Made by a program: the position numbers and the translations under genes | IMG/VR virus record: IMGVR_UViG_3300042876_000780 | Span: 1 to 22,206 of that record | Source of the DNA: a virus | DNA: 22,206 nt | Direction: 5' to 3' (one strand) | Shown: positions 915 through 18,383 of the stretch, one piece after another | Layout of the letters: each line of letters begins with the position of its first letter | Numbering within the stretch: the first letter of the stretch is position 1 | The notes under the pieces: model-generated | Seen by the model: only the letters and a program-made list of their open reading frames with translations | What the model was told of the DNA's origin: nothing | Database searches by the model: none

Positions 915-967
915 CAGGGCTCCTTGGGTTCGGGGCGCGGGGAGGCGCCCGGGGGTGGGGTCGTCAT
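914..967 (-). CDS. 17-aa proline-rich micro-ORF linking two genes
   Basis: This reads MTTPPPGASPRPEPKEP followed by a stop. Its ATG (967-965) overlaps the radical SAM stop as ATGA, and its TGA (916-914) overlaps the next ATG as TGATG. It exactly fills the only apparent gap in this operon and contains the AAGGAG site for the next gene. It may be a translated peptide, or simply a coupling ORF that delivers ribosomes to the downstream start. Seven of its residues are proline, so it is unlikely to fold. It is too short for a family call. Confidence 0.4.
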   Translation of the reverse strand: MTTPPPGASPRPEPKEP

Positions 968-1967: not shown

Positions 1968-2164
1968 CACAGCACCTCGAGGTCGCAGGGAGTGCCCTCG
2001 CGAGCGAGGATGGCCTCAGCGGTGCCACGGACGTAGCCATGGATGGCGCCGAGCGCGAACCACGACCAACGGGAGAGCTCGATGCGGACCCGGTGGGGGC
2101 TCACGTGTACGGCTCTCACGCACGGCAGGGACGACAGGGCAGACAGCAGGCGATGGGTGCTCAC
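1967..2164 (-). CDS. Hypothetical 65-aa protein
   Basis: The start is GTG 2164-2162, overlapping the upstream TGA as GTGA. A longer frame to 2227 is the out-of-frame shadow of that gene. The product begins VSTHRLLSALSSLPCVRAV and has an alternating strand segment (VHVSPHRVRIEL) followed by two helices (WSWFALGAIHGYVRGTAEAILA), suggesting an alpha/beta mini-domain. It has two Cys. I do not recognise a family. It is coupled to genes on both sides. Confidence 0.55.
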   Translation of the reverse strand: MSTHRLLSALSSLPCVRAVHVSPHRVRIELSRWSWFALGAIHGYVRGTAEAILAREGTPCDLEVL

Positions 2165-2349
2165 GCCTCGATCCTCTCTCGGTGAGGGCAGCCGACGCAG
2201 CCCTTGGTCTCGTTGATGGGTGGGCACGCGCTGCCGTCGGGTAGGGTGCAGCGGTAGCGCTCGGAGGCGATGCGCTCCGCCTCAGCGGCGTGGGCGCCGG
2301 CTCGCCGACAGACCTCGGTGATGGCGGCGAGGGTGGCGGTGGGGGTCAC
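2161..2349 (-). CDS. Hypothetical 62-aa Cys-containing protein
   Basis: ATG 2349-2347 overlaps the upstream stop as ATGA. The N-terminal half is helical (ITEVCRRAGAHAAEAERIA) and the C-terminal half carries Cys at CTLPDGSAC and CVGC followed by PH, a plausible small zinc-binding knot. Similar Cys-terminated mini-proteins are frequent in phage early operons, but no function is known to me. It ends in a GTGA overlap with the next gene. Confidence 0.5.
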   Translation of the reverse strand: MTPTATLAAITEVCRRAGAHAAEAERIASERYRCTLPDGSACPPINETKGCVGCPHRERIEA

Positions 2350-2642
2350 GGGGACACCTCAGCGGCGGTCGCCCATTCGATCCGAGCGGAGTTCGCCGAG
2401 GGGTCGAGCACGAACTCCTCGGGCCAGGTGGAAGACGGAGTGCAGGATCGATAGACCACGACGCCCGCGGCCCGGAGTTTGTTGAGCGTCGCGCCCGAGA
2501 CGCCTGGGACGACGGTGAGATCTGCGCGGTACAGGCGGGTCTTGAACTTCTCTCCGCCCTGCCATGCCCGTTCAAGAGCCCGCCGAAAGTAGCCTCCGGA
2601 TTGGAGAACCTCCATCGCCACCGCGTAGCGCTTGCTGGCCAT
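2346..2642 (-). CDS. Hypothetical 98-aa protein, first gene of accessory operon
   Basis: ATG 2642-2640 follows AAGAGAGA with usual spacing and lies about 45 bases downstream of a strong sigma70-like promoter (2692-2720), so this is the promoter-proximal gene. The first half is basic and helical. Residues 43-62 (VPGVSGATLNKLRAAGVVVY) could form a helix-turn-helix or a small winged helix, which would fit a regulator or DNA-binding role, but the match is only visual. It ends in an ATGA overlap with the next gene. No family is recognised. Confidence 0.6.
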   Translation of the reverse strand: MASKRYAVAMEVLQSGGYFRRALERAWQGGEKFKTRLYRADLTVVPGVSGATLNKLRAAGVVVYRSCTPSSTWPEEFVLDPSANSARIEWATAAEVSP

Positions 2643-2691: not shown

Positions 2692-2720
2692 GATATAGCA
2701 GGGCACTAAGGAAGGGTCAA
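2692..2720 (-). promoter_or_regulatory. Sigma70-like promoter of accessory operon
   Basis: Reading the minus strand, TTGACC (2720-2715), a 17-base spacer and TATATC (2697-2692) preceded by TGC, an extended -10. The predicted transcription start is near 2685 and the ATG is at 2642. The spacer end and -10 contain the shared 13-bp operator-like element (2696-2708). Confidence 0.7.
2696..2708. promoter_or_regulatory. Operator-like element O1 (TAG-N4-CTGCTA)
   Basis: The minus strand reads TAGTGCCCTGCTA. The right arm CTGCTA is intact; the left arm matches its reverse complement at 3 of 6 positions, making this the weakest of four copies. It overlaps the -10 of the promoter for the 2642 gene. A 19-bp block around it matches the plus-strand promoter at 2819-2837 at 17 of 19 positions. 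Confidence 0.6.
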
Positions 2721-2742
2721 GCCATGACCGTGTAGATACGTG

Positions 2743-2755
2743 GCACGCGCCGTGC
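2743..2755. repeat. Short inverted repeat in divergent promoter region
   Basis: GCACG-CGC-CGTGC is a perfect 5-3-5 inverted repeat between the two divergent promoters. It is followed by an AT-rich island with TTAATTAA at 2761-2768. It could be a regulator site, but nothing else in the window repeats it. Confidence 0.3.
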
Positions 2756-2811
2756 AATCCTTAATTAAAGGGACGAGACGACCGACCCCCCTCAAAAAAC
2801 ACGATCGCCCC

Positions 2812-2839
2812 CTTGCGCTCCTTAGCGTCCTGCTATAGC
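2812..2839 (+). promoter_or_regulatory. Promoter of the 2893-3754 operon
   Basis: The -10 is TATAGC (2834-2839) with an upstream TGC extended -10. The best -35 is TTGCGC (2813-2818), giving a short 15-base spacer, so the extended -10 probably compensates. Predicted start is near 2846, leaving a leader of about 47 bases to the ATG at 2893. It carries operator-like element O2 in the same position as the other three promoters. Confidence 0.55.
2823..2835. promoter_or_regulatory. Operator-like element O2 (TAG-N4-CTGCTA)
   Basis: The plus strand reads TAGCGTCCTGCTA. The left arm matches the palindrome at 4 of 6 positions and the right arm is intact. It overlaps the -10 of the promoter for the 2893 gene, in the same register as the other three copies. 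Confidence 0.6.
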
Positions 2840-2892
2840 GTGTCTCTTGTCAGCGGGGCCGCGGAGGTCCCGGGACAGAGGAGAGAGAGACC

Positions 2893-3096
2893 ATGACGAC
2901 CACGACCCCAGCCCAGCGCGCCGCAGTCGACTACAGGTCCCGAGTCGCCGAGATCGAAGCGCACTACAACACCCCCGCGAAGAGGATGACGAAGGCCTTC
3001 GCCGACGAGATGACGCGCGCCTGCCGCGAGTACGAGGCCGCGATGGTGAAGGATATCGGACTGCGCCGAGCGAACCGGAAGGGAGCGGCGCTGTGA
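2893..3096 (+). CDS. Hypothetical 67-aa protein
   Basis: ATG at 2893 follows GAGGAGAGAGAG, a strong ribosome binding site. A competing longer frame from 2847 is rejected because it starts at the promoter and merges into the next gene's frame. The product is helical and charged (YRSRVAEIEAHYNTPAKRMTKAFADEMTRACREYEAA), consistent with a small coiled-coil or helical bundle. Its TGA overlaps the next GTG as GTGA. Function unknown. Confidence 0.65.
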   Translation: MTTTTPAQRAAVDYRSRVAEIEAHYNTPAKRMTKAFADEMTRACREYEAAMVKDIGLRRANRKGAAL

Positions 3097-3308
3097 CGAT
3101 CGCCAGTGAGATGAAGGAGATCCTAGCCCGCAGCCGAGCCGCTCACGCTGCCGCCTCCGCGCTGCTGCCCGCCGGGCCCGATCGCGTCGTCAAGGGGCTC
3201 GCCATGACGATGCTGCATCACCGCGAGGACGCCGTGTCTGCCGTGCATCGGATGCGCGCGATGGGCTGGGAAAAAGATTATCCCGCGATATTCGTGGCGC
3301 TGCCCTAG
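3093..3308 (+). CDS. Hypothetical 71-aa protein
   Basis: The start is GTG 3093-3095 in a GTGA overlap with the upstream stop, preceded by GGGAG. The product begins VTIASEMKEILARSRAAHAAASALLP and continues as two or three helices ending WEKDYPAIFVALP. The frame extends further 5', but that portion is out-of-frame shadow of the 2893 gene. No family is recognised. Confidence 0.55.
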   Translation: MTIASEMKEILARSRAAHAAASALLPAGPDRVVKGLAMTMLHHREDAVSAVHRMRAMGWEKDYPAIFVALP

Positions 3309-3341
3309 TAGACACGAAGGTAACTCGTCTAGGAGTGACCC

Positions 3342-3536
3342 ATGACCAACGCCGAGTTAGCCGACGCGGTCGCCCACGACTTCGTCGCCGCTCCAGATGA
3401 CGAGGACGCCGTGGCCGCCTTCAATAACATATACGAGCTTGCCGCCGCGGCGCTCGCCGCGCTGGACGCGGGCGGGACGGTGGACGACGCACGGCAGGCT
3501 GCCGCGGAGCGGCTCGCCGACCTGACGACGACGTAG
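3342..3536 (+). CDS. Hypothetical acidic 64-aa protein
   Basis: ATG at 3342 follows AGGAG with an 8-base spacer. The product is very acidic and Ala-rich (MTNAELADAVAHDFVAAPDDEDAVAAFNNIYELAAAALAAL), a small all-helical protein with no Cys. A small acidic helical phage protein can be a DNA mimic or inhibitor, but nothing here shows that. It sits 33 bases after the previous gene and 11 before the next. Confidence 0.6.
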   Translation: MTNAELADAVAHDFVAAPDDEDAVAAFNNIYELAAAALAALDAGGTVDDARQAAAERLADLTTT

Positions 3537-3547
3537 GGGGGGGCACC

Positions 3548-3754
3548 ATGGCAAGGATCTCAAGAGAGTTGGAGCGCTACCGAGCGGCGAAGAAGGCCGC
3601 CGCCGAGGCGGAGCGAGCGCTGCATGATGCGGCGCTGGCCCTGGTCGAGCGTATCGAGGAGGACCACCCGGCCATCCGCCGCCGCCAGTCGGCACGACCG
3701 CGACCGTCTCGCGTCACCAAGAAGAGGACTCCGCGGCCCGAGGCTAGCAGCTAG
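3548..3754 (+). CDS. Hypothetical 68-aa coiled-coil, basic tail
   Basis: ATG at 3548 follows a G-rich ribosome binding site. Residues 3-40 form a charged helix with heptad-like spacing (ISRELERYRAAKKAAAEAERALHDAALALVERIEEDH). The tail from residue 44 is strongly basic (RRRQSARPRPSRVTKKR), which would suit nucleic acid binding. It is the last gene of its operon, with a hairpin 13 bases after the stop. Function unknown. Confidence 0.6.
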   Translation: MARISRELERYRAAKKAAAEAERALHDAALALVERIEEDHPAIRRRQSARPRPSRVTKKRTPRPEASS

Positions 3755-3767
3755 TCTCTCGCGCGAG

Positions 3768-3783
3768 CGTCGGGCTTCCGACG
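3768..3783 (+). terminator. Hairpin after the 2893-3754 operon
   Basis: CGTCGG-GCTT-CCGACG is a perfect 6-bp stem with a 4-base loop, 13 bases after the last stop codon. There is no T run, so intrinsic termination is uncertain. The location at the convergent junction supports a terminator role. Confidence 0.4.
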
Positions 3784-3853
3784 GCTGCCCCGGCTAGCGG
3801 ATAGGGGAGGTGAAGGGCTCGATCGCCGCGGCGGCCGGGCCCCTTGCTTGTCT

Positions 3854-3871
3854 GGCGGCGCCTACGCCGCC
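3854..3871 (-). terminator. Hairpin after the long minus-strand operon
   Basis: GGCGGCG-CCTA-CGCCGCC is a perfect 7-bp stem with a 4-base loop, 8 bases past the metallophosphoesterase stop on the minus strand. It has no T run. It is placed to end the operon transcribed from 13751. Confidence 0.45.
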
Positions 3872-3879
3872 GCCCACGT

Positions 3880-5139
3880 CTACGCCGCTGCCCACTGGAT
3901 CCAGCTTGAGCCCTTCTCGGTGGCGCGACCCTTCTCGACGAACACGGGCATCGAGATCGTCGGGCCGTGCTCGTGGTGGGTAAGCCAGAGCGCCTGACGC
4001 GGAGACTCGAACGGGAAGTTCCCCGCGTCGGCGTACTCGTCGTAGCCCTTGATACTGCCATTCACGATTAGTCGACCTAGGTTCCGGTACTGGTGCCAGT
4101 GCGCGATCAGGAGCACGTCGTACGGCCGCTCGATCGCCTGGTTCCGGCTCCGTTTCTTGTGGTCGCCGCGGATGATCGGACCGAGCGCGCCCACCATCCC
4201 GTCTCCGCCACGGAATTGGTCCCCGTGGTTCAGGAGGTAGCGCGTTCCGAACACCTGGTAGAGCGCGTCCGGGCCGTTCGGGATCAGGAACCGGATCCGC
4301 TTGTTGCCCTCGTAGTGCCTCGCGAGGAGCTGGTAGCCGAGCCAGTCGAACGAGGTATGGGCCCGCCCCTTCGCTCGGATCTTCATCGTGACGCGGCCGT
4401 GGTTCCCCGGTACGCACGGTACGAAGACGTTCTCGAATTCTCCGAGCAGCGTGTCGAAGAAGCGGATCCGGTGGTCCCGGAGGTCGAGCACGCACGGCAT
4501 GATCTCGTCGTCGTTCGTGGCCGAGAGTTCCTCGTGGATGTCGCCCGTGGTCCCGTCGCCCCCGAGCGGTACGACGATCCCCGGGTACTTGGGGTTCACA
4601 ACGTGAGAGAAGAGGAGGTCAAGCGCATTCTCGGCAAGCGACTTCAGCCGGGCCCGAGCGATCTCCATGCTGTAGGCATTGACCCCGCCGATCTGCGTAG
4701 GGTCGACGACCTCGCCCCAATGCTCGTCGGACACGAACAGGGATGGCACGCCAGGGGATGACGCCGCGGACTTGCGAGGGCGCAGCGCCCACTCTGGGGA
4801 CTGCGCCGGAACGGAGGCGATCCGGAGGATCTCGCGCGTCACTCGTTCGTCAGTGAGAGCCGATCGCTTCGACTCGGAGAGCTCGCGCTCTAGGTCGGCG
4901 ACGCGATCGCGCAGGACAGCGGCAGGGTCGGTCGCCCCGCCTTCCTGTCGACTCACGCCCTTGCGCCAGTCGGGGCAGGACCGGGAGAGGAACAGAGAGA
5001 GGTTGGTCGGAGTGACCTTGTAGCCCATCTCGACGGACAGCGACCGGGCCGCCGCGGCCATATCGCCGTTGAACGCCACGGCCAACTCTCTCGCGCGCTC
5101 GGGCCACTTCCCCACCCAGACCGTTGCCTTGCCCGCCAT
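3880..5139 (-). CDS. Calcineurin-like metallophosphoesterase
   Basis: This is a 419-aa protein starting at ATG 5139-5137 (MAGKATVWVG) with AGGGGG upstream. A frame 33 codons longer overlaps the upstream gene and is rejected. The metallophosphoesterase motifs appear in order: D138-x-H140 (VSDEHWGE), GGD 193-195, GNH 245-247, HGD 305-307 and AHWHQ with H347 and H349. Together they make a two-metal phosphoesterase site acting on phosphodiesters such as DNA or nucleotides. Residues 15-55 look like a helix-turn-helix (ARELAVAFNGDMAAAARSLS, then NLSLFLSRSCPDW), so it may bind DNA. Residues 75-95 are a coiled coil. It is the last gene of the operon, 23 bases after the primase-helicase, and may act as a nuclease in phage DNA processing. 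The exact substrate is not visible. Confidence 0.85.
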   Translation of the reverse strand: MAGKATVWVGKWPERARELAVAFNGDMAAAARSLSVEMGYKVTPTNLSLFLSRSCPDWRKGVSRQEGGATDPAAVLRDRVADLERELSESKRSALTDERVTREILRIASVPAQSPEWALRPRKSAASSPGVPSLFVSDEHWGEVVDPTQIGGVNAYSMEIARARLKSLAENALDLLFSHVVNPKYPGIVVPLGGDGTTGDIHEELSATNDDEIMPCVLDLRDHRIRFFDTLLGEFENVFVPCVPGNHGRVTMKIRAKGRAHTSFDWLGYQLLARHYEGNKRIRFLIPNGPDALYQVFGTRYLLNHGDQFRGGDGMVGALGPIIRGDHKKRSRNQAIERPYDVLLIAHWHQYRNLGRLIVNGSIKGYDEYADAGNFPFESPRQALWLTHHEHGPTISMPVFVEKGRATEKGSSWIQWAAA

Positions 5140-5162
5140 CGTGCCCCCTGTACCCAGCGCCC

Positions 5163-7346
5163 CTAGAACGGCGCTACCGTCGGATCGACGTAGACGTAAT
5201 CTCTCACACCGTCGGCCATCTTGCGCCTTCGCTCCCAACTCATCGCCTTCAACACGCGGCCGACGCGCTGCTCGTCACGGTCGGTCCAGTGCTCGATCTT
5301 CTTGTCGATCGCGCCGACGAGTACCGCGCTGATCTTGGTCTCCGTGATCTTGTGCTGAGAGGCCCACGCCCGGATCCGATCCTCCCACGGGTCGCGCTTG
5401 ACGAAGGCTTCCTGAAACCGCTCGAGGTCGGCCTCTTCCGCCTTCGTGAGCCCGTGCTCCTCGCCAGTGGTGTACGCGGCGAAGGCCTCGGCCCAGATTT
5501 GATCGCGCCACTCAGCGAGCTTCGCGAAGTTGAACTCGCTGGGGGTCTCGACGATCCAGTAGCGACGGTCTCCGCCGCCTCGGCCTTCGGTCAGGATCTC
5601 ACGCTCGTTCGTGGTGCCGCAGAGTACGAACCGCCGAGCGTGGAGTTCCATCTCTCGCGCGTACGGGGCACGGAACCGGTCCTCAGCGGAGGAGATGAAG
5701 CCTTTGACCGTGTTCACGCTGCGAGCGCGCTGCATTGATTCGAGCTCACCCCACTCGTAGATCCACGTGGTGTGAAGCTTTAGGTAGGCGTCGTTCTTGT
5801 CGTTTAGGTCCATCGCGGTATCGCCGAACCACGCGGCCGACGCGAGGATCTTGAAGAAGCTCGACTTCCCCACGCCGCCGGGCCCGACGAGGATCAGCAC
5901 TCCGTCGGCCTTCACGCCGGGCTGCTCAACGCGAGCCACCGCGGAGATCAGCCACTTCCGGATCAGCGTGTTGGTCAGGTCGGTGCGCGGCACCCCGAGC
6001 ACGTCCTCGGCGATCGAGTCTATGCGCTGCACTCCATCCCAGACGTTCGACCGTAGGTAGTCGCGAACGGGGTGGAAGCGTCGTTCGTGGGCGACCTGGC
6101 GCACGCCATCCTCGATGTCGGAACGGGAGAATTTGTACCCCTTGTCCTCGCTCTCCCCGAGCTCGGTCTCGCAGAGTTCGCGGACTCGGAGGTAGTCGGT
6201 CTCGACGACCGGGCGGCGGTTGATGGTGACGGCTAGGGTCAGCTCGTTGAATTCCAGCACGCCGCGCCCCAGCACCTTCTCGCGCAGTTCGGGCGTGCGC
6301 AGGATGAAGGTGCACGATCCGTAGGAGTTGGACTTGAGCAGGCGATCGCGCTCGGAGCGGATCGGCGTGACCGTGGCCGGCTGGCCGCCGCCGCTTGACG
6401 CGGCCTGCGGTGGGGTGGGCTTGGCCGGCGCGAGGTTGCCGCAGGCGCGGAGGTGCTCGATCGGCGACCGCTTGGCCTCCCACGCGTCGAGGTCGAGCGC
6501 GTCGCCGACCCAGCATGAGGTGCTCTTCTTGCCGGCGCCCGCGTGGTTGGCGCTGAAGCAAGCCCACTTCGAGCCCTCGGAGTCAGGGATCCCGCCGAAG
6601 CACCCCTTGTGCGAGCACACGGGGCAATCGCCCGATCCGGACTTGGGGTACACGCGTGGGTGCTCGCGGTTGTACGCGGCGACCGCGTCGCCGATCTCCA
6701 TGGCAGCCGGCGAGACGAGCGTCATCACGCGCGCGGGCGGCGCTAGGTCGCGCGGCTCGTACCCCTCCTCGCGCATGACAAGGACGCTGGCATCTCGGCG
6801 CACGCCGTCTACGACGCACCGGGGGGCGAACAGGAGCCGCGCGAAGTCGAGCAACGCCGGGCCGTCGACGTGGTAGCCCGCGCGCCCGGGAGCGGCCAGG
6901 GGGAGACCCGCGGCGCCTAGGGCCGCTGCGACTTTGTCGGCGGCGCCCTGCGCGGCGCGCGAGTAGAGCTCGCGGTCGGACACGGGCGCCCGGAACACGA
7001 ACACGATGCGGGCGCCGCGCGGGGTGAGGTGCATCAGGGATCCGGGCAAGAGGCCCAGCTCCGCCGCGGTGCGCACGGTCGCAGCGACCTCGGGGGTAGG
7101 CGCGCAGTGGTCGCCCTTCGCGTCCTCGTGGTCGAGGTCGATCTGGACGGCGCTCGAGGAGCGCCAGCGCTCCGTCCCGCGGTGACCGCCGCTCCAGTCG
7201 TGAGCCGACCACCAGCGCTCTCCGGTGGCGGGGATGGCGTTGAGCGCGTCGGCGAGCGCGCGAGCCGGCGGGACGGTGTCGGGGAGCGGAACGACTTCGC
7301 CCTGCGGCCTCTGGCGGCCGAGCCCGACCGTGATCGAGAGCCCCAT
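5163..7346 (-). CDS. AEP primase / VapE-type SF3-like helicase
   Basis: This is a 727-aa protein starting at ATG 7346-7344, in a TGATG overlap with the VRR-NUC stop and with GGAGGGG upstream. The N-terminal part resembles an archaeo-eukaryotic primase/bifunctional polymerase domain: acidic pair D70 and D72 (VQIDLDHED), with a following R-G-hydrophobic strand at 110-118. A zinc ribbon follows: C241-x2-C244, C249 and C263 with FSANH. The C-terminal half is a Virulence-associated E (VapE) ATPase: Walker A GPGGVGKSS at 488-496, Walker B-like WIYEWGE at 528-534, CGTTNE sensor at 576-581 and RR at 594-595. The family primes and unwinds DNA for phage or island replication. It is a likely replication initiator for this phage. 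No separate DNA polymerase is visible in the window. Confidence 0.88.
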   Translation of the reverse strand: MGLSITVGLGRQRPQGEVVPLPDTVPPARALADALNAIPATGERWWSAHDWSGGHRGTERWRSSSAVQIDLDHEDAKGDHCAPTPEVAATVRTAAELGLLPGSLMHLTPRGARIVFVFRAPVSDRELYSRAAQGAADKVAAALGAAGLPLAAPGRAGYHVDGPALLDFARLLFAPRCVVDGVRRDASVLVMREEGYEPRDLAPPARVMTLVSPAAMEIGDAVAAYNREHPRVYPKSGSGDCPVCSHKGCFGGIPDSEGSKWACFSANHAGAGKKSTSCWVGDALDLDAWEAKRSPIEHLRACGNLAPAKPTPPQAASSGGGQPATVTPIRSERDRLLKSNSYGSCTFILRTPELREKVLGRGVLEFNELTLAVTINRRPVVETDYLRVRELCETELGESEDKGYKFSRSDIEDGVRQVAHERRFHPVRDYLRSNVWDGVQRIDSIAEDVLGVPRTDLTNTLIRKWLISAVARVEQPGVKADGVLILVGPGGVGKSSFFKILASAAWFGDTAMDLNDKNDAYLKLHTTWIYEWGELESMQRARSVNTVKGFISSAEDRFRAPYAREMELHARRFVLCGTTNEREILTEGRGGGDRRYWIVETPSEFNFAKLAEWRDQIWAEAFAAYTTGEEHGLTKAEEADLERFQEAFVKRDPWEDRIRAWASQHKITETKISAVLVGAIDKKIEHWTDRDEQRVGRVLKAMSWERRRKMADGVRDYVYVDPTVAPF

Positions 7347-7738
7347 CACCCCCTCCGCGCTTCGTCGAGTGCCTGGGCGACGGCCTCTTCGGCTGTGGCG
7401 CCTTTCGCGAGGACGTAGATGCCCCCGTGCTTCACGATCATGTCGCGCCACCGATCTTGAGCGGGTGAGGTGCGGCCGTCCTCTGCCTTTACCTCAATGC
7501 CGACTGCGCGGCCACGCGGGGCGAGCACCCCCATGATGTCGGTCTGTCCCTCTACACCGTAGGTGACGGGGCGGAAGCCGCCGGCCATCCGCTGGCGCAG
7601 GTCTACAAAGGCCTTGCGCGCGGCTGGGGTGATGGGCTGCCAGGCAACGCCCGTGTTGGACCGCCAGATGCGTAGGTCTGGGAGGGAACCGAACCGTAGG
7701 AGGAGTCGCTGTTGCAGCACCTGCTCAGGGGTGCTCAT
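7346..7738 (-). CDS. VRR-NUC family nuclease
   Basis: This is a 130-aa protein from ATG 7738-7736, starting 14 bases inside the end of the methyltransferase gene. VRR-NUC signatures are present: RSNTG at 26-30, G-x2-D67 in GQTDIMG, E82-x-K84 in GIEVKAEDG, and Q94 in TSPAQ. This is the PD-(D/E)XK core as in stand-alone phage VRR-NUC proteins, related to the FAN1 nuclease domain. Known stand-alone members cut branched or flapped DNA, so a role in recombination or replication-fork processing is likely. The length is normal for a single-domain member. It ends in a one-base overlap with the primase-helicase start. Confidence 0.9.
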   Translation of the reverse strand: MSTPEQVLQQRLLLRFGSLPDLRIWRSNTGVAWQPITPAARKAFVDLRQRMAGGFRPVTYGVEGQTDIMGVLAPRGRAVGIEVKAEDGRTSPAQDRWRDMIVKHGGIYVLAKGATAEEAVAQALDEARRG

Positions 7739-8951
7739 GGGCGTCCACCATGGCGATCCTCTCTCCGATCCACCTCATGACGTTCACGGCCATGGAATTC
7801 CCGAGCGCCGCGTAACGCGGTCCGTCGCTGGCGCCCGGGATCAACGTGTAGTCGTCGGGCATCCCCATGAGCCGCTCGCACTCACGCGGCGTGAGGCGAC
7901 GGACGCCGCGGCCAGCGTGCACGCCCATGCCGATCGATGTGGCCCCGAGCGAAGGGGAAAACTCGCCTCCGGTGATCGGCTCCTGCGTCATGTGGAACGC
8001 GATGCAGGGCACGCCGCCCGCTGCACTGCCGCTGCCCTTGCGGAGCGTACCGGGCGGCCCCACGTTTGAGCCGTGGCACTGGAACGCGATGGCGGGCACG
8101 CCCTGTCCCATTTTCCCGCCGCCTCGGGACAGAGCACCCGCGACGTTTCCGTCTCCGCCCTCCAGCCTCACCTCGGCGCGAGAGTTCTCGGCGAAGGCGA
8201 TGGGGATCAAGTGCCCCTCCTTCGTCGACGAGTCAGGCCCCTTCGCGTCGCGCTCCTGTAGCGCCCACGCGACGGCCGGTACTAGCCCCCCATCGAATTC
8301 GTGGTCGGTCCCAAGTCCGCCACCGCCTCGAGTGCGCGCCGCAAGGGTTCCGGAAGGTCCTTCCCCCGCTTCTCTGCGCGGCGGAGGATCCCCCGACAGG
8401 CTCGCGCGCTCAAAAAGTACCGCCGCGGCACGCTGCCAGGCGCCTCCAGAATGTCCGACAACGAACACACGCCGTCGTCGCTGAGGGACGGCGCGAGCAT
8501 GTGATTCCACTCGGACGTACTGAGCGTCAAGAACTCGGTAGGCGAACCCATACCCGAGTTCTGCCAGCCCCCCGAGGATGGAGCCAAAGGCCCGTCCTTC
8601 GTCGTTCGACAAGACACCGGGGACGTTCTCCCAGACCACCCAGCGGGCGCGTGTGCGCTGAGCAAGGCGAAGGAATTGTAGGGCCAGCCCGCCACGAGGA
8701 TCGTCCAGCCCCTCCCCGAGTCCTGCAACGCTGAAGGACTGGCAGGGGGTGCCGCCGACGAGAAGATCGACAGTTGGTCCGCTGATCTTCGTGAAGTCGC
8801 CATGGTTCGGAGTCTCCGGGTAGTGGTGCGCGAGGACGCGGTTCGGGAAGTCGGCAATCTCGGCGTAGAACTCGGCGCGCCACCCGAGCGGTCGCCACGC
8901 GAGCGTGGCCGCCTCGATCCCGCTGCAGACGCTGCCGTAACGGAGGGTCAC
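7725..8951 (-). CDS. C5-cytosine DNA methyltransferase (Dcm-like)
   Basis: This is a 408-aa protein from GTG 8951-8949, in a GTGA overlap with the upstream methyltransferase. Motif I is SVCSGIEAA (7-15); motif IV is GGTPCQS with the catalytic Cys at 70; motif VI is ENV (108-110); motif VIII is QRRRRVF (157-163). Motifs IX/X are RRLTPRECERLMG (351-363) and GNSM (384-387). The enzyme transfers a methyl group from SAM to cytosine C5. The region between VIII and IX (about 165-350) holds the target-recognition part. It shows repeated segments starting VAWAL, IAFAENS, IAFQCHG and IAFHMTQ, a feature common in phage members. No cognate endonuclease is adjacent, so it is an orphan, probably anti-restriction. 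The target sequence cannot be read. Confidence 0.92.
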   Translation of the reverse strand: MTLRYGSVCSGIEAATLAWRPLGWRAEFYAEIADFPNRVLAHHYPETPNHGDFTKISGPTVDLLVGGTPCQSFSVAGLGEGLDDPRGGLALQFLRLAQRTRARWVVWENVPGVLSNDEGRAFGSILGGLAELGYGFAYRVLDAQYVRVESHARAVPQRRRRVFVVGHSGGAWQRAAAVLFERASLSGDPPPRREAGEGPSGTLAARTRGGGGLGTDHEFDGGLVPAVAWALQERDAKGPDSSTKEGHLIPIAFAENSRAEVRLEGGDGNVAGALSRGGGKMGQGVPAIAFQCHGSNVGPPGTLRKGSGSAAGGVPCIAFHMTQEPITGGEFSPSLGATSIGMGVHAGRGVRRLTPRECERLMGMPDDYTLIPGASDGPRYAALGNSMAVNVMRWIGERIAMVDAHEHP

Positions 8952-9715
8952 GGCGTCGACTCGTCGGGAGGTGGAGTCTTGAACAGTTCCCCGTTCTCGC
9001 CGGTCGACGCGAGGCGCTTGCGTGCGATCTCGACGTAGTCCGGATCGCGCTCGATTCCGAGGAAGCGCCGCCCTTCCTTTAGGGCCGCAACGCCGTGTGA
9101 TCCCGAGCCACAGAAGGGATCGACCACCAGCGCGTCGCGAGCGGCGGCCACTCGGATCAGCGACTGGATTAGATCGACCGGCTTCTGCGTCGGGTGGTTC
9201 TTATCCTGCCCTCGGACACGCCCGAAGCGGAGCACGTTCGAACCGCACAGATCGTGGAACTTCCCCGGGCCGTTGCAGAGGTGGATCGCAAGTTCGTGCG
9301 TGGGCTTGAACCCCGTACCCATCCCAGCGCTACCCTTGTCCCAGACGATCATGTTCTGCAGGCGCAGTCCGCCCGACTCCAGTGCGGGCGCCAGGTTGGC
9401 CCACATGCGCCAGTCGCAGAAGACGATCAGCGATCCGCCGGGAATTAGGATCCGCTCCGCCTCGAAGGCTACCGAACGTAGGAGCCACACGAGCCCGGGC
9501 GTCGTCATGTTGTCGCCGGCGAACCACGTCACGGCGCCCGACTGCATCCGTTCTGAGGCGATCCCCTGTGACGTGGCCTGTCGACGGGTGGCCTCGGTTG
9601 AGCCCCCGGAGCAGTACGGGGGATCGGTCACGACGGCCCCAACGCTGCGCGAAGGGATCCTCTGCAGCACGGGGATGCAGTCGCCCTGCTCAATGGACCA
9701 GCGGTCAGTGCTCAC
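8948..9715 (-). CDS. N4/N6 site-specific DNA methyltransferase (II)
   Basis: This is a 255-aa protein from GTG 9715-9713 with AAGGAG nine bases upstream. A longer TTG frame to 9766 would overlap the helicase and is rejected. Catalytic motif IV DPPY is at 31-34; HPTQKP at 174-179; motif I DPFCGSGS at 199-206. The order IV, then recognition region, then I is the beta class of amino-methyltransferases, which methylate adenine N6 or cytosine N4. The recognition region is about 35-170. It is an orphan methyltransferase, between the helicase and the C5 enzyme, and ends in a GTGA overlap with the latter. Confidence 0.9.
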   Translation of the reverse strand: MSTDRWSIEQGDCIPVLQRIPSRSVGAVVTDPPYCSGGSTEATRRQATSQGIASERMQSGAVTWFAGDNMTTPGLVWLLRSVAFEAERILIPGGSLIVFCDWRMWANLAPALESGGLRLQNMIVWDKGSAGMGTGFKPTHELAIHLCNGPGKFHDLCGSNVLRFGRVRGQDKNHPTQKPVDLIQSLIRVAAARDALVVDPFCGSGSHGVAALKEGRRFLGIERDPDYVEIARKRLASTGENGELFKTPPPDESTP

Positions 9716-9734
9716 GTGCGAGTACTCCTTCCAT

Positions 9735-11249
9735 CTAGAGAACGAACCTCCACCGAGGCTCCTCAAAGAACGTCCGCCGATACTCGGACAGCACCCACCC
9801 CGCCGACCGTCCGTCGGCGCGAGCGCGGGCCACTAGACGTCGCAGCTCTGCCATCTTGGTCGTCTGCGAAGCGGACCGGCCGCGCTCGGCGAGCTCCTCC
9901 AGCGCGATGGCTCGGACGCCCTCCTCGATCTCCTGGACGGTGCGGCCTGCGAGCGGAGGGCAGTGGCCGCAGCAGGGGCACGCGGGCAAGCGAGGATCGT
10001 AGAGCGCGAAGCAGTTGGAGCACGAACGCACCGCCGCCGCGTTCTCGCCGTTCATGTCGCCGTTGCTGCCCTTGACAGGCCGCACATCGAGCGACCACTC
10101 GCGGTCCGCGTCGGGCAGGCCGTGCGTCATCACGCACCCAGCGTGGTCGTGGATGCGCGCGGAGCGCTTCACGTTGGTCGACCCGCAGTGACGGCACCCC
10201 TGGACGTTCCACGAGGTGTCGCCGCGGCAGTCTCGGCAGACGGGGCGTAGCACGCGCCCGACCATCTGCAGGTAGAGCCCTTGCGACTTGGTCGGCCGTG
10301 CCAAGATGCAGCACTCGACGCGGGGCGAGTCCCATCCCTCGGTCAGGACCCCGACGTTGCAGACGACGGTCGTCTCTCCGTCCTCAAGGCGCTGGAGGAT
10401 GGCGCCGCGCTCGTTCTTCTTGGTCTTGCCATCGACGTGCTCGGCTCGCACGCCCGCCGCCTTGAAGCGCTCGACCATCTTCAGGGAGTGCTCGATCGTC
10501 GCGGCGAAGAGGACGGTCCGGCATCCGCCCGCCTTCTCGACCCACTGCTCGACGATGTTACCGACGATCGCAGTCCCACCCATGACCTCGCCAAGATCAT
10601 GCTCGTTGTAGTCACCGCCCGTCGTGCGGACGCCGGAGAGATCGGGGACGTCGAAAGCGAAGCCAGTAGCGGGCGTCAGGTAGCCGCGATCGGTGAGGCC
10701 CCGGATCGTCTCGACAACCACGAGGCCGCGGAAGAGATCACCAAGGCCTTTGTTGTCGGAGCGGACTGGCGTGGCCGTGAGCCCGATCGCGGGGACGCCC
10801 GGGAAGCGGTGCAGCACCTTCATGTACGAGTCGGCGCGCGCGCGGTGCGCTTCGTCGATGATGATCAGAGTCGGCTCCGGGATCCGCCCGACTCGCTTCT
10901 CGCTGAGAGACTGGATGGAGGCCACCTGCGTCCGCAGCCACGGCTTCCAGCCCGCTCGGTGCGCAGCGGAGACGATCCCGTGCCGCACGCCAGCGCCCGT
11001 GAGGCGGGCACTGCATTGCTCGAGGAGTTCTTTCCGATGCGCGATGAAGAGGACCGAGCCGCGTTCGTGCTCCTCGATCGCCCGCGCGATCAGGCTCGCG
11101 GCGATCGTGGTCTTGCCCGCGCCGGTCGGAGCCACTAGGAGCGCGTACGGGTCCACTCCTGCCCCCGCTAGGCTCGCGAGTGCCTGACGGACACGCGTCT
11201 CCGCGTCCGCCTGATAGTCGCGCAGCCTCTGAGGGGCAGGAGTGGCCAT
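9735..11249 (-). CDS. SF2 DEAH helicase with zinc ribbons (RadD-like)
   Basis: This is a 504-aa protein from ATG 11249-11247. SF2 motifs are clear: Walker A PTGAGKTT 41-48, motif Ib region TQVASIQSL, DEAH 132-135, TAT 158-160 and motif VI QMVGRVLRP 328-336. After the helicase core are Cys pairs at C338/C341 with C352/C355 (a zinc ribbon) and C410/C413 with C424 to C430 (a second). The arrangement resembles the RadD/YejH family, which assists recombination and repair, and phage DEAH helicases of the same type. The final 60 residues (SASQTTKMAELRRLVARARADGRSAGWVLSEYRRTF) are helical and conserved in phage versions. It probably unwinds DNA in replication or recombination. A true RadD interacts with SSB, and an SSB-like gene lies directly upstream. 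Confidence 0.9.
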   Translation of the reverse strand: MATPAPQRLRDYQADAETRVRQALASLAGAGVDPYALLVAPTGAGKTTIAASLIARAIEEHERGSVLFIAHRKELLEQCSARLTGAGVRHGIVSAAHRAGWKPWLRTQVASIQSLSEKRVGRIPEPTLIIIDEAHRARADSYMKVLHRFPGVPAIGLTATPVRSDNKGLGDLFRGLVVVETIRGLTDRGYLTPATGFAFDVPDLSGVRTTGGDYNEHDLGEVMGGTAIVGNIVEQWVEKAGGCRTVLFAATIEHSLKMVERFKAAGVRAEHVDGKTKKNERGAILQRLEDGETTVVCNVGVLTEGWDSPRVECCILARPTKSQGLYLQMVGRVLRPVCRDCRGDTSWNVQGCRHCGSTNVKRSARIHDHAGCVMTHGLPDADREWSLDVRPVKGSNGDMNGENAAAVRSCSNCFALYDPRLPACPCCGHCPPLAGRTVQEIEEGVRAIALEELAERGRSASQTTKMAELRRLVARARADGRSAGWVLSEYRRTFFEEPRWRFVL

Positions 11250-11274
11250 GGTCGTGTCGGCTCGGGGGGTGGGT

Positions 11275-11736
11275 CTAGAACGGCGGCTTGTTGGGGTCGA
11301 CGACGGGGGCCTCGGCGCCCGCGGCAGCGGCGGCCTTCGCGGCCTCCTCGAGCGCCGCGTACGCCGCGGAGATCGCCGCCTCGCTCTTGCGGTCGCTCGC
11401 GTCGGTCGAGACCTTGAACACCTTCATCGTCCCGCGCTTGGTCGCGCGGTCGGACGCGTACTCGATCCGCGTGAAACTGCCGATCGAGACGAGGCCCATC
11501 TTCGCGTTGATGTCGGCCGACCCGCCGACGCAGAGGAGACCTCCGGCCTCGTCGATGAACTCGTAGACCTCCTGGTCGCCCTTCGGGCGGCCGTCGGGCC
11601 ACGTGCCGACGCCCTTCTGCGTGAGGGACTTCGCGAAGTGGCCCTCAACGAAGTCGCCGAACTTCTCGAACTTGGCGAAAAGCTTCTCGATCTGCCCCGC
11701 GTTGGGGTCCTGCACCTCGGTCATGTTGCGCGCCAT
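11275..11736 (-). CDS. Putative OB-fold single-stranded DNA-binding protein
   Basis: This is a 153-aa protein from ATG 11736-11734, with AGGAG upstream. The centre alternates strands (GDFVEGHF, EVYEFIDEAGGLLCV, MGLVSIGSFTRIEYA, GTMKVFKVS), a pattern seen in phage OB-fold ssDNA-binding proteins, where a conserved G-x-KVF-V strand follows a TKRG turn. The C terminus is an Ala-rich linker then PVVDPNKPPF, ending in Pro-Pro-Phe like the acidic DxPF tip by which SSB recruits partner enzymes. The identification rests on pattern and context: the helicase gene is 25 bases downstream and recombination genes are on the opposite operon. It could be another OB-fold protein; family not certain. Confidence 0.5.
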   Translation of the reverse strand: MARNMTEVQDPNAGQIEKLFAKFEKFGDFVEGHFAKSLTQKGVGTWPDGRPKGDQEVYEFIDEAGGLLCVGGSADINAKMGLVSIGSFTRIEYASDRATKRGTMKVFKVSTDASDRKSEAAISAAYAALEEAAKAAAAAGAEAPVVDPNKPPF

Positions 11737-11747
11737 GTGTCTCTCTC

Positions 11748-11936
11748 CTAGCCCTGCCTGCGTGACGCCGGCGGGGGATCCGCCGGCGGTGTTGCGTCGC
11801 CCTTGTTAGAGTTGTCGCCCGTGTCGTGGGGTCGAAGGTCGTTGGGTACGGTGGGTCCCGTGCGTCTTCGTGCCTCGCAGTGCGCGTCGTAGCAACCTTC
11901 GCACGAGGCGGATCCGAAGGGGCACTCGGCGATCAC
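11748..11936 (-). CDS. Cys-rich 62-aa protein
   Basis: The start is chosen as GTG 11936-11934, overlapping the upstream TGA as GTGA with GAGG six bases before it. A longer frame from GTG 11957 lacks a binding site. The product reads VIAECPFGSASCEGCYDAHCEARR, with four Cys (C5, C12, C15, C20) in 16 residues, likely a zinc knuckle or small metal-binding site. The rest is a Pro/Asp-rich unstructured tail. It lies between the membrane Cys protein and the SSB-like gene. Function unknown. Confidence 0.5.
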   Translation of the reverse strand: MIAECPFGSASCEGCYDAHCEARRRTGPTVPNDLRPHDTGDNSNKGDATPPADPPPASRRQG

Positions 11937-12307
11937 CTGCCACCTCGGCGCAGCCACGCGGCGAGGACGTGCTCACGGTCGAGTCGCGTGCGCTTCCAGT
12001 CGGGCACCTCGCCGTGGGCCTTGAGGGTCGCGCGCGACACCTCCTTGCGCAGCGCGCGCTCGGGGATCGCGGTCTGCGGGTCGAGGTCGGCGAAGCACCT
12101 GCCGCAGACGCGGAACGGCGTGGCGAGACGAGCGAGCACCATGGGGCGCTCGCCACCGGAGGCGCGCACGACGACGAAGACGCGCCACCACGCGCCGTTG
12201 TGGCAGCTCGGGTTGCTGCACGGGTGCTCCGACTCGTACAGCACGACGGCCGCAGCGGAGAGTGAGAAGACGAGGGGTACGGCGATGGCTGCGAGGACGG
12301 CGATCAT
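11933..12307 (-). CDS. Membrane-anchored Cys protein
   Basis: This is a 124-aa protein from ATG 12307-12305 in an ATGA overlap with the methyltransferase stop, with GGAGG upstream. Residues 3-23 (AVLAAIAVPLVFSLSAAAVVL) form a single membrane segment. After it come Cys30-x4-Cys35 and Cys68-x2-Cys71, a possible zinc ribbon, then a basic C-terminal helix region (KRTRLDREHVLAAWLRR). The short N terminus makes the orientation ambiguous. If the soluble part is cytoplasmic, it would be a membrane-tethered zinc protein. A membrane protein is unusual among replication and modification genes; superinfection exclusion or membrane attachment of replication are possible but not shown. Confidence 0.6.
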   Translation of the reverse strand: MIAVLAAIAVPLVFSLSAAAVVLYESEHPCSNPSCHNGAWWRVFVVVRASGGERPMVLARLATPFRVCGRCFADLDPQTAIPERALRKEVSRATLKAHGEVPDWKRTRLDREHVLAAWLRRGGR

Positions 12308-13497
12308 GTGTGGGTACCTCCGATGATGCGTAGCTCTGCGATCCTGGCGTACTCGGGGTCGCGCTCGATCCCGATGAATCGGAACCCCTCCTGCAACGCG
12401 GCGATTCCCGTCGTGCCGCTCCCCGTGAACGGGTCGAGCACCACGCCGCCGGGCGGGGTCACAAGCCGACAGAGCCAACGCATCATGGCGATAGGTTTCA
12501 CCGTCGGATGGATGTTTCGCGCGCCGCCGTTGCGTCCTGCGCCCGCACGCGGCGAGTTGAGGCCCTCCGATCCCTCGTCACGTTCCGTGGCCTCACCACC
12601 GCCGCGCGCGGGAAGTGACTCGCACCCGAGGTCGCGCTCGCGTCGGCTCGGCTTGGCGACATAGCGGAAGACGGGGAAGAACCGGGAGGCGCCGCCCTGT
12701 GAGGCCGAGATGTCCCGTAGCGTTGCCGTGTCGGGCATCGCGCCGTAGCAGACGGAGCGGGCGGAGCGGGCGGAGCGTACCGTCCCCGCCGCCATGGCTC
12801 CGCTCTTGAGTGGGCCGCTCTGCCGGTCCAACTCTGCAACAGGACAGCCCTCGACGCACGCGCCGCCCTCGACGCATTCGGGGTCATGCGAGAAGATCAC
12901 GTTGGGCGGCCAACGGCCGGGCGGCAGCGGCGTGTCCGATCCATGGTGCTCGCCGTACGTGTTGCCGGTCGTACGCGCGAGCCCCTTCGCGCGCCACTCC
13001 TCCGCCGACATCTCATGCTCTCCCACCCTGCACCCGTCTACATTTAGCGCCCCGGTGCCGTACGCGAGGACGTTGTCGGCGACGGTGCCGACGAGCGGCC
13101 GGCGCGCCACGACGATCGGCTCATGACCCGGCTTGAGGGCCGTTCCCCACCCGTCGCGCACGCCCGCCGCCTTCTCCACGTCGAGTGACTTGGGGAACCC
13201 CGATCCGTACATCCAGTGCAGCGAGTCTCGGACCTCGAATCCCGAGTCCTCGATCGCGCACGCCATGCGGTGATAGGTCCGCGTGCCACCGAACGCGAGC
13301 AGGTGACCACCCGGCTTGAGCACGCGGTGCGCCTCGCGCCACATCGGCACCGAGTAGGCGATCCCGCTCGCGTCCCAACGCTTGCCCATGAAGCCAAGCT
13401 CGTACGGCGGATCCGTCACGATGGCGTCGATCGAGGCCGACTTCATGTCGGCCATCGCACCGACGCAGTCGCCGACCACCACGCGTCCGGCCGTCAC
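12304..13497 (-). CDS. N4/N6 site-specific DNA methyltransferase (I)
   Basis: This is a 397-aa protein from GTG 13497-13495 in a GTGA overlap with the XRE gene. Motif IV DPPY is at 29-32, HPTVKP lies about 25 residues before motif I, and motif I FTGSGTTG is at about 357-364, again the beta-class order (IV, recognition, I). The middle contains a Cys cluster (DPECVEGGACVEGCPVAELDRQSG), a segment common in phage methyltransferases that could bind zinc. A run of Ser-Ala-Arg repeats is encoded by a 9-bp tandem repeat at 12753. The gene adjoins the XRE regulator like a controller-protein/methyltransferase pair, but no restriction gene follows. Target sequence unknown. Confidence 0.9.
   Translation of the reverse strand: MTAGRVVVGDCVGAMADMKSASIDAIVTDPPYELGFMGKRWDASGIAYSVPMWREAHRVLKPGGHLLAFGGTRTYHRMACAIEDSGFEVRDSLHWMYGSGFPKSLDVEKAAGVRDGWGTALKPGHEPIVVARRPLVGTVADNVLAYGTGALNVDGCRVGEHEMSAEEWRAKGLARTTGNTYGEHHGSDTPLPPGRWPPNVIFSHDPECVEGGACVEGCPVAELDRQSGPLKSGAMAAGTVRSARSARSVCYGAMPDTATLRDISASQGGASRFFPVFRYVAKPSRRERDLGCESLPARGGGEATERDEGSEGLNSPRAGAGRNGGARNIHPTVKPIAMMRWLCRLVTPPGGVVLDPFTGSGTTGIAALQEGFRFIGIERDPEYARIAELRIIGGTHT
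12753..12777. repeat. 9-bp tandem repeat inside methyltransferase gene
   Basis: CGGAGCGGG is repeated about 2.8 times (12753-12761, 12762-12770, partial to 12777). On the coding strand it encodes Ser-Ala-Arg repeats in the recognition region, without breaking the frame. Length variation here by slippage would add or remove three residues. Confidence 0.7.
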
Positions 13498-13751
13498 CTG
13501 GACGCGGGACTGGACTTCGGGGGGAAGATCAGGGCGGCGAGGTCGAGGCGAGCGGCCCTCGGTGCGCCCGACTTCTGCACCGCCGCGAGGATGGCCGCTG
13601 CGCTAGCGGGGCTGAACCGCCCACCGCGCTTACCAGAGAGCACCGCGGAGATCGTCGGCTGGACCACGCCGGAGCGGCGCGCGAGTTCGGCCTGCGTCCA
13701 GCCGAGCGCGTCGAGAGCCTTGGCGAGAGGGTGTGTCGCGGGTGTCGTCAT
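13494..13751 (-). CDS. Small XRE-family transcriptional regulator
   Basis: This is an 85-aa protein from ATG 13751-13749 (MTTPATHPLA). A frame 26 codons longer would begin upstream of the promoter and is rejected. The helix-turn-helix spans about residues 8-45: scanning helix WTQAELARRSG (18-28) and recognition helix VQPTISAVLSGKR (30-42), typical of XRE/Cro. The size matches Cro-type repressors and the controller (C) proteins of restriction-modification systems. It is the first gene of the minus-strand operon and overlaps the methyltransferase as GTGA, so it controls its own level. A 13-bp operator-like element lies in its promoter and in three others, making it the likely regulator of all four. 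It could act as repressor, activator or both. Confidence 0.9.
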   Translation of the reverse strand: MTTPATHPLAKALDALGWTQAELARRSGVVQPTISAVLSGKRGGRFSPASAAAILAAVQKSGAPRAARLDLAALIFPPKSSPASR

Positions 13752-13760
13752 GGGTCGACG

Positions 13761-13790
13761 GCAATAGCAGCCCGCTACGTGAGCCGTCAA
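13761..13790 (-). promoter_or_regulatory. Promoter of XRE/replication operon
   Basis: On the minus strand: TTGACG (13790-13785), 18-base spacer, TATTGC (13766-13761) with TGC just before it. Only 9 bases separate the -10 from the ATG at 13751, so transcription would start 2-3 bases before the start codon: a nearly leaderless mRNA with no room for a ribosome binding site. Operator-like element O3 spans the -10. Confidence 0.65.
13765..13777. promoter_or_regulatory. Operator-like element O3 (TAG-N4-CTGCTA)
   Basis: The minus strand reads TAGCGGGCTGCTA. The left arm matches the palindrome at 5 of 6 positions. It overlaps the -10 of the XRE promoter, supporting autoregulation. Confidence 0.65.
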
Positions 13791-13884
13791 CGTTTCTCGC
13801 GCACCTACATCGAGAAAGATCGCGCTCACTCACCGCGCATCATCTATAGCGACAAGAATTCGACCGAATAAAAAAGAAACGGCG

Positions 13885-13914
13885 TTGACCTGCCGTGTAG
13901 CAGTCTGCTAACAG
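13885..13914 (+). promoter_or_regulatory. Promoter of recombination operon
   Basis: TTGACC (13885-13890), 18-base spacer and TAACAG (13909-13914), a weak -10 preceded by TGC. An AT-rich stretch with six A's (13869-13876 region) sits just upstream. The predicted start is near 13921 and the ATG is 13954, leaving a leader of about 33 bases with GGAGG. Operator-like element O4 lies in the spacer and -10. A weak -10 with a perfect palindromic site would suit tight or activator-dependent control. Confidence 0.6.
13898..13910. promoter_or_regulatory. Operator-like element O4, perfect palindrome
   Basis: TAGCAG-T-CTGCTA is a perfect 6-1-6 inverted repeat and the best copy of the four. It overlaps the -10 of the plus-strand promoter. 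An odd-centred palindrome of this size is typical of XRE/Cro dimer operators. Confidence 0.7.
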
Positions 13915-13953: not shown

Positions 13954-15255
13954 ATGGCAGGGATGAAGTTCAGCACCGGCAAGCGCGCCGCTCCGATCTG
14001 GGTCCACCTCTACGGTCCCGAGGGGATCGGAAAGTCCACGTTCGCGAGCGACGCGCCGGATCCGGTGTTCATCGACGTCGAGCAGGGGACCGACAACCTG
14101 TCGACCTCGCGCGTGACGTTCGACGACGCGGGCGAGCGCACGCGGCCGACTACGTTCGCCGAGGTCATGACCGCGCTCGGCTCGCTCGCCCGAGACCCGC
14201 ACCCGTTCAAGACGATCGTGCTCGACACGGCCGACGCGCTGGAGGCGCTGATCTGGGCGCAGGTCTGTGCGCAGGCGCAGATGAAGACGATCGAGGACTT
14301 CGGGTACGGCAAGGGGTACGTGATCGCGCTCAACCCCTGGCGCCAGTTCGTCGACGCGGTCGAGACGCTCCGCGCCAAGGGCTACAACGTGATCACGCTC
14401 GGGCACGCGTTGATCAAGCCCTTCAAGAATCCGGAGGGCGAGGATTTCGACCGCTACATCCCGAAGCTCCACGAGAAGGCCAGCGCGCTGATCAAGGAGC
14501 GCGCGAACGCGGTCCTGTTCGCGAACTGGCGCAACGCGACGCGGAAGGACTCGCAGACCAAGCGGGTCCGCGGCGTGACCGACAAGGCGCGGCTGATCTA
14601 CACGACGCGCACCGCGGCCTACGACGCCAAAAACCGCTACGACCTGCCCGAGGAGATGCCGCTGTCGTGGGTGTCGTTCTACTCGGCGGTGCAGGCGCAC
14701 AAGCCCGCAGACCCCACGGCGCTCCGCACGGCCATCCTCGAGAAGATCGAGCGGCTCCCCGCCGAGGGTCGCGAAGCCGCGACCGGCTACCTTGCCGCCG
14801 CCGGCACCGATGCGGTGAAGCTGTCGAAGCTGAACGGGTGGATCAACGCGCAGATCCCGGAAGTGGACGCCCCCGCCGCTCCGTCCAACGTCCCGGGACA
14901 AGAGCCCGCGCTCCAATCGTCGGCGCAGATCGCCGAGCGTGAGGCCAAGGCCGCGGCGCCTGCCGCACCCGTCCCCGCCGCCGCCGATCCGCTCACCCCC
15001 GGCGTGGACGTGCCCGCCATGGCCCCGCCCCCCACGCCCGTCGCTCCCGTCGTCGACCCCAAGGCCGACCTGCACAAGGAGATCCTCGACGCGGCCGACA
15101 AGTGCAAGACCGCGATCGACCTCGCCAAGTACGTCCTGCCCCTGATCAAGAAGGCGATCGACGGCAAGCGGTTCACGGAGTCCGAGCTCGCCGAGGTCCG
15201 CCAGTGGTACACGGACACGGCAGCCGCGCTGACGAAGGGGGCGGTAACGCGATGA
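13954..15255 (+). CDS. Sak4-like AAA ATPase, phage recombination
   Basis: This is a 433-aa protein from ATG 13954, with GGAGG eight bases upstream. Walker A GPEGIGKST is at 21-29 and Walker B KTIVLDT at 86-92; residues 130-150 (VETLRAKGYNVITLGHA) fit the next core strand. This is the RecA-like fold of the phage AAA_24/Sak4 family, which promotes single-strand annealing or strand exchange, often together with SSB. The core ends near 265. Residues 300-355 are a Pro/Ala-rich linker and 360-433 a helical C-terminal domain. The gene heads the plus-strand operon and is followed (ATGA overlap) by a DUF5758-like gene, then an Fe-S nuclease. This resembles an annealase plus exonuclease pair. A RecA-like relative cannot be excluded, but the length and motifs fit Sak4. 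Confidence 0.8.
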   Translation: MAGMKFSTGKRAAPIWVHLYGPEGIGKSTFASDAPDPVFIDVEQGTDNLSTSRVTFDDAGERTRPTTFAEVMTALGSLARDPHPFKTIVLDTADALEALIWAQVCAQAQMKTIEDFGYGKGYVIALNPWRQFVDAVETLRAKGYNVITLGHALIKPFKNPEGEDFDRYIPKLHEKASALIKERANAVLFANWRNATRKDSQTKRVRGVTDKARLIYTTRTAAYDAKNRYDLPEEMPLSWVSFYSAVQAHKPADPTALRTAILEKIERLPAEGREAATGYLAAAGTDAVKLSKLNGWINAQIPEVDAPAAPSNVPGQEPALQSSAQIAEREAKAAAPAAPVPAAADPLTPGVDVPAMAPPPTPVAPVVDPKADLHKEILDAADKCKTAIDLAKYVLPLIKKAIDGKRFTESELAEVRQWYTDTAAALTKGAVTR

Positions 15256-16789: not shown

Positions 16790-16822
16790 TCACCACCCCA
16801 CCACCACAGAGGAGAGACCTAC

Positions 16823-18325: not shown

Positions 18326-18332
18326 GTCACCC

Positions 18333-18362: not shown

Positions 18363-18383
18363 TCTACCGTTGGAGACATCACC

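Follow-up and report, generated by a model that had tools for sequence, protein, structure and literature searches.

The repressor gp33 of mycobacteriophage BPs is described as binding five regions and controlling four promoters, and phage lambda as having tripartite OL/OR operators (both PMC4557955); for phage PY54, the cI and cro mRNAs are reported to have been mapped as leaderless (PMC4488713). The type of circuit in which one phage repressor acts at several promoters is already known. Here we describe a candidate circuit of this type in the IMG/VR virus record IMGVR_UViG_3300042876_000780, a linear sequence of 22,206 bases (69.3% G+C) from an incomplete genome; the whole record was analyzed and is called the window below. 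Four 13-bp sites of the form TAG-N4-CTGCTA lie as two pairs in its two divergent intergenic regions, and we think it probable that they are the operators of the phage's own 85-amino-acid XRE protein, which would be a Cro-like early repressor with negative feedback. The argument is built on the sites, their positions and statistics, the conservation of one pair in a sister phage and the conservation of the recognition helix, and from these we infer binding, dimerization, repression and a Cro-like rather than CI-like role of XRE.

An exact search found the motif at 2696..2708 (minus strand; operator O1, TAGTGCCCTGCTA), 2823..2835 (plus; O2, TAGCGTCCTGCTA), 13765..13777 (minus; O3, TAGCGGGCTGCTA) and 13898..13910 (plus; O4, TAGCAGTCTGCTA) and at no other place in the window, as the original prediction had stated with correct coordinates and strands. 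It gave five hits for the four places, since O4 is palindromic and is read on both strands. When one mismatch was permitted, the sole extra hit was the opposite strand of O3, so no new place was added to those that had first been picked out by eye. In 100 shuffles of the window the mean number of motif hits was 0.02, and no shuffle had five. CTGCTA alone occurred eight times on both strands; five of these were motif hits and the remaining three (3745, 12746, and 20098, all minus) lacked TAG, so that the wide occurrence in coding DNA which the prediction had named as counting against itself was not observed. Considering that the motif had been chosen post hoc, an unfixed-motif test was added, in which separate sites in both intergenic regions were counted for any 13-base pattern with 9 of 13 columns fixed, both end columns included, with 900 dinucleotide shuffles as the control. 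The real intergenic regions have such a pattern with two sites per region; at least four sites appeared in none of the 900 shuffles, and three sites in 207.

The positions of the sites are as regular as their sequence. Each motif lies in the spacer between the -35 and -10 elements and ends on TA, the first two bases of the putative -10, which had been predicted and was correct for all four. The putative promoters are P1 around O1 (TTGACC-17-TATATC), P2 around O2 (poor -35 TTGCGC, spacer of 15 bp, extended -10 TGC-TATAGC), P3 around O3, which is the promoter of the XRE gene (TTGACG-18-TATTGC), and P4 around O4 on the Sak4 side (TTGACC-18-TAACAG). TTGAC stands 17–18 bp ahead of the -10 at three of the four window sites (17 at P1; 18 at P3 and P4) and at both sites of the sister phage, and the chance expectation of the combined TTGAC and motif pattern was 0.00 (100 shuffles). 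TG is found one base ahead of the -10 (TG-N-TA) at all four window sites, or six of six with the sister. The promoter calls rest on TTGAC at three sites, TG-N-TA at four, and location ahead of genes. Of the six positions of TATAAT, the -10 hexamers have only three to four in the window and two to four across all six sites. Because the P3 -10 ends 9 bases ahead of the XRE ATG, with an identical layout in the sister, the XRE mRNA probably has little or no leader.

Much of the window can be aligned with the sister phage (IMGVR_UViG_3300042876_000590, 30,842 bases), the long segments having 83–98% nucleotide identity, and several proteins common to both have 94–100% identity. The sister keeps both sites of the XRE/Sak4 intergenic region (TAGCGGTCTGCTA and TAGCGTCCTGCTA), the counterparts of O3 and O4. 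In the aligned region, the nine fixed motif bases of the two sites were identical at 18 of 18 positions and TTGAC at 10 of 10, in contrast to 4 of 8 in the N4 spacer and 98 of 166 among the remaining intergenic bases (Fisher, motif vs. rest, P = 0.0002; motif vs. N4, P = 0.005). Two further blocks of this region are identical in the sister: an 11-base block in its middle, outside both promoters (CGCATCATCTA, 13836–13846), and AAAAAGAAACG (13871–13881), just ahead of the P4 -35, which could be an A-rich UP-like element.

The original prediction had described O4 as a perfect 6-1-6 palindrome and the left arms as matching the palindrome at 6, 5, 4, and 3 of six positions (P4, P3, P2, and P1, respectively). 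These counts were correct, but the graded affinity that had been read into them was not supported by the comparison: the left arms of the sister match at 5/6 on the XRE side and 4/6 on the Sak4 side, which is the reverse of the order in the window (5 and 6), and position 5, where a palindrome would need A, is G in five of the six sites (four in the window, two in the sister). Thus, the perfect palindrome is the exception and not the consensus, and a consensus TAGCG-NN-CTGCTA with a symmetric TAGC-N5-GCTA core seems to fit the sites better than graded imperfect palindromes. Symmetry gains no independent support from the right arm, whose TG-N-TA is at the same time the extended -10. The centers of paired sites are 127 and 133 bp apart, and 134 bp in the sister. 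With regard to DNA looping between paired sites, the three distances are similar yet not in one helical phase.

The proposed binder of O1 to O4 is encoded at 13494..13751 on the minus strand. XRE matches the PHROG transcriptional regulators and HTH_3 (PF01381, Cro/C1-type helix-turn-helix [HTH]; 30.2 bits, above the Pfam cut-off of 23). An AlphaFold2 model made from a two-sequence alignment (predicted local distance difference test, pLDDT, 73.6) has five helices, with the HTH helices at 20–27 and 31–38, and this modeled placement is that expected of an XRE HTH. The PDB fold matches of the model were weak (best E 0.063), C proteins, HigA, and 434 Cro being among them, and the sequence match to the 434 repressor was marginal (E 0.033). 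At 57% identity between window and sister, XRE is the least conserved of the window proteins with a match, and its changes are unevenly placed. Codons 28–48 (GVVQPTISAVLxGKRGGRFSP), which cover the recognition helix and the following loop, have eight synonymous changes and one amino-acid change, in contrast to three synonymous and 17 amino-acid changes in the other 39 of the first 60 codons (Fisher, P = 0.0003). Most of the protein has thus drifted, whereas the part that reads DNA has been kept along with the DNA site, and no other evidence speaks more strongly for XRE as the owner of the sites. For the pair next to the XRE gene, the idea of one regulator, probably XRE, is therefore well supported.

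The P1/P2 pair is different, as the sister has exchanged this region. Among the window proteins tested from 469 to 3308, none had a match in the sister at E 1e-4, and ahead of window position 3340 its nucleotide matches are short (33–42 bases). At the corresponding place the sister has a different XRE gene (L050:12111-12353; matched to a PHROG transcriptional repressor at E 1e-10), together with a perfect 9-1-9 palindrome, GGGTCATCCCGGATGACCC (L050:12421-12439), which is missing from the window and has a single occurrence in L050 with up to three mismatches allowed; TAG-N4-CTGCTA was not found in this divergent region of the sister. The genes downstream of the exchange (window 3342–3754) are kept, with 95% and 86% protein identity. 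Because the sister has other DNA at P1/P2, the four-promoter circuit can be traced in the window alone. Conservation at the promoters of related phages, which had been proposed as a check, was thus found for the XRE/Sak4 pair, the one pair open to comparison; that XRE acts at P1/P2 too is, from the common motif and position, the simplest reading and a likely one. More tentatively, and with real doubt, we suggest that one XRE governs an early-gene circuit of four single-operator promoters, the right arm of the operator being also the extended -10, and that sister phages rewire this circuit by module: where one has a whole divergent region bearing the operator, the other has a self-contained regulator together with a 19-bp palindrome of its own, and the genes downstream are retained.

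The map of open reading frames (ORFs) is consistent, by ORF spacing, with the four operons of the original prediction, that is, with four runs headed by the four sites. XRE, at its own operator, heads a replication gene run of about 10 kb; in window and sister alike, its end shares 4 nt with the gene that follows. After XRE, the P3 run (3880..13497, minus strand, gaps of at most 25 nt) comprises replication and methylation genes: an N6/N4 methyltransferase (12304–13497) followed by further ORFs, a helicase (9735–11249), a methyltransferase (8948–9766), a C5-methyltransferase (7725–8951), VRR-NUC (7346–7738), a VapE-domain helicase/primase-like protein (5163–7451), and, as the last gene, an exonuclease (3880–5238). 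In the slot of the N6/N4 methyltransferase that overlaps XRE, the sister has another enzyme, an MT-A70 methyltransferase (L051:6694-7248). The P4 run (13954..19519, plus) encodes the Sak4-like annealing protein, an exonuclease, a ParB-like protein (16823–18325), a dATP/dGTP diphosphohydrolase N-terminal domain protein, and a DUF7768 protein; the 178-nt gap behind Sak4 includes part of another ORF. The P2 run (2893..3754, plus) has four small ORFs, with no Pfam family for any of them, and converges on the P3 run. The P1 run goes leftward (469..2642, minus) through a 98-amino-acid ORF (2346–2642), small ORFs, and a radical-SAM-like ORF (964–2040; radical-SAM Pfam hit below the cut-off). In the sister, the terminase, portal, and head genes lie leftward on the strand of the P1 run, of which they might be a continuation. 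The Pfam and PHROG scans that were run had no match for the minus-strand ORFs near the right end (20711–21983), the Rfam scan gave nothing, and the tRNA search found none.

In the proposed circuit, an XRE dimer on a spacer site ending at the -10 would block RNA polymerase. As the first gene of the P3 replication and methylation run, XRE would be made early along with that run, and would then shut its own P3 run, the divergent P4 recombination run, and the P1 and P2 runs, giving negative feedback of the Cro kind. We prefer a Cro-like role because XRE heads the run that it would repress, with the 4-nt overlap and no gap above 25 nt. One operator common to the regulator's own promoter and to others of the phage, the mark of an autoregulated phage repressor, is present at the sequence level, and by ORF spacing the gene stands first in the early run it would repress, as a Cro-like gene should. 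Scans of window proteins with Pfam, PHROGs, and NCBIfam, in a record that is incomplete, revealed no CI-type partner repressor among those scanned.

Several points weigh against this proposal. The P1/P2 pair is assigned by common motif and position, and the sister DNA differs there; the collections searched yielded one independent relative only, and the transcription runs were deduced from ORF spacing alone. A generic sigma-70 scan of 2500–14100 gave no promoters (0.6 expected); it found none of the four because their -10 hexamers match TATAAT at three to four positions only. XRE was modeled as a monomer, with modest confidence and weak PDB matches, so that its dimer is a putative one. Moreover, the helix result cannot serve as proof by itself, since in HTH proteins conservation is often higher in the core than in the tails.

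Three other explanations were weighed. XRE might be a CI-like prophage immunity repressor, its four sites silencing the lytic runs in a lysogen. The operator biochemistry would be the same, and few of the parts common to the two otherwise similar phages have diverged as much as the XRE region; a small repressor at several dispersed promoters is also described for BPs (PMC4557955). Nevertheless, we judge this unlikely, considering that XRE heads and overlaps a replication and methylation run that would need silencing, that tyrosine and serine integrases (PF00589 and PF00239) were found in neither of the two records, both incomplete, and that the two phages, with recognition helix and operators alike, would therefore be homoimmune on present evidence. 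The motif could instead be a promoter element, an extended -10 plus a spacer element for a host or phage sigma factor. The original prediction had allowed that an extended -10 could explain the TGC, and the TG-N-TA at all six sites has that pattern; the poor -10 hexamers would also be expected if another element gave recognition. The left TAG at fixed distance, which the prediction had rightly held to be left over, and the invariant C of CTGCTA are the only bases that fall outside the extended -10 and are not explained by it. The change pattern of the XRE gene would likewise have no explanation, and the promoters of the second divergent region of the sister must function without the motif. A promoter element in place of an operator is accordingly quite improbable.

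Least credible, and very improbable in our view, is that another DNA-binding protein owns the sites. The phage encodes the ParB-like protein of the P4 run, short palindromes suit such proteins, and host regulators such as a LexA are among the candidates. All four sites, however, stand at the same place in their promoters, as centromere sites do not; in the sister, which lacks the second pair, the ParB-like protein aligns at 100% identity; and LexA boxes are not known to have the form of this operator. XRE as owner of the operators remains the reading we favor.

The search for relatives covered several collections. The proteins of IMGVR_UViG_3300044712_001487 (5,457 bases) are 100% identical to those of the window over the matches listed, so this contig is not independent. 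Three scans of the viral collection for XRE relatives always returned the same two contigs, the plasmid collection had no XRE relatives, and the genome collection had none in the first scan and then 10 weak HTH relatives; in the 330 bases upstream of the match, neither TAG-N4-CTG nor its complement occurred in any of the 10. From phage records came 190 mycobacteriophage HTH proteins, each covering at most 55% of XRE, and a scan for the ParB-like protein gave 18 loci, two of them close kin. Among 43 Sak4-bearing viral loci, 42 were examined with positive controls (L037, whose match begins at base 1, was left out; L010 and L021 have <600 bases upstream of Sak4). With phmmer E values up to 10 allowed, only the fragment nearly identical to the window and the sister had a relative of XRE ahead of Sak4, and exact sites within 500 bases upstream of Sak4 were confined to the same two loci, so that XRE and site occur together; L011 had one site with one mismatch. 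The 1-mismatch motif was present in 8 of 13 kin records and the exact motif in two kin only, a reversed control pattern being as frequent or more.

When the motif plus -35 was used to probe the viral collection, 25 stretches were returned, two of them kin (L007 and L069). The other 23 comprise six singletons and 17 with one near-identical surrounding sequence, on contigs of 42–45% G+C; these 17 loci (within L053–L076) contain TTGAC-N7-GTAGC-N3-CTGCTA in their common stretch. L053 to L076, L069 excepted, had no tblastn match to any of 26 window proteins. With 23 of 25 stretches non-kin, the motif plus -35 was rejected as a stand-alone probe for related phages. The operator was not found in the literature searched, among the matches listed, which is no proof of absence. 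The analysis supplies an operator and its likely cognate regulator for an uncultivated phage group, and the sister comparison serves as a natural experiment in rewiring, in which an early divergent region was swapped and the downstream genes were kept.

The known systems resemble this locus to different degrees. Like the restriction–modification C protein C.Kpn2I, as described in PMC6237814, XRE is a small protein by methyltransferase genes that appears autoregulated via a promoter site, and the best fold matches of its model, weak as they are, include C proteins. The C-boxes of that account, however, hold two dimer sites, whereas a single 13-bp site stands at each promoter here; the overlapping gene encodes a methyltransferase, none of the ORFs scanned around XRE was identified as a restriction gene, and the apparent targets extend to non-methylation runs. 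The stoperators of Cluster A phages are also 13-bp sites at several places of the phage genome, but they are described as asymmetric and more than 20 in number, their binding protein being a two-domain monomer of about 183 residues (PMC9283540). Stoperator-like genome-wide sites were rejected for the window, which has four sites only, all at promoters, and an 85-amino-acid protein. With lambda-type Cro/CI switches and with PY54 Cro (PMC4488713), the locus has in common a small HTH protein, a divergent region, and a short palindromic operator overlapping the promoter, and the XRE message may be leaderless as are those of PY54 cI and cro. Single sites on four promoters nevertheless contrast with the tripartite operators of lambda, and 13-bp sites on four promoters with the one 16-bp site bound by PY54 Cro (PMC4488713). 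The nearest parallel is BPs gp33, as PMC4557955 describes it: one small repressor serves several intergenic regions and four promoters, and its OR sits within PR, in the stretch from -35 to -10, with divergent promoters, its own among them, close by. In the full operators of gp33 a tetramer binds two 12-bp half sites separated by a variable spacer, in contrast to the one 13-bp site per promoter here, and gp33 is a lysogeny repressor, whereas the XRE of the window looks Cro-like.

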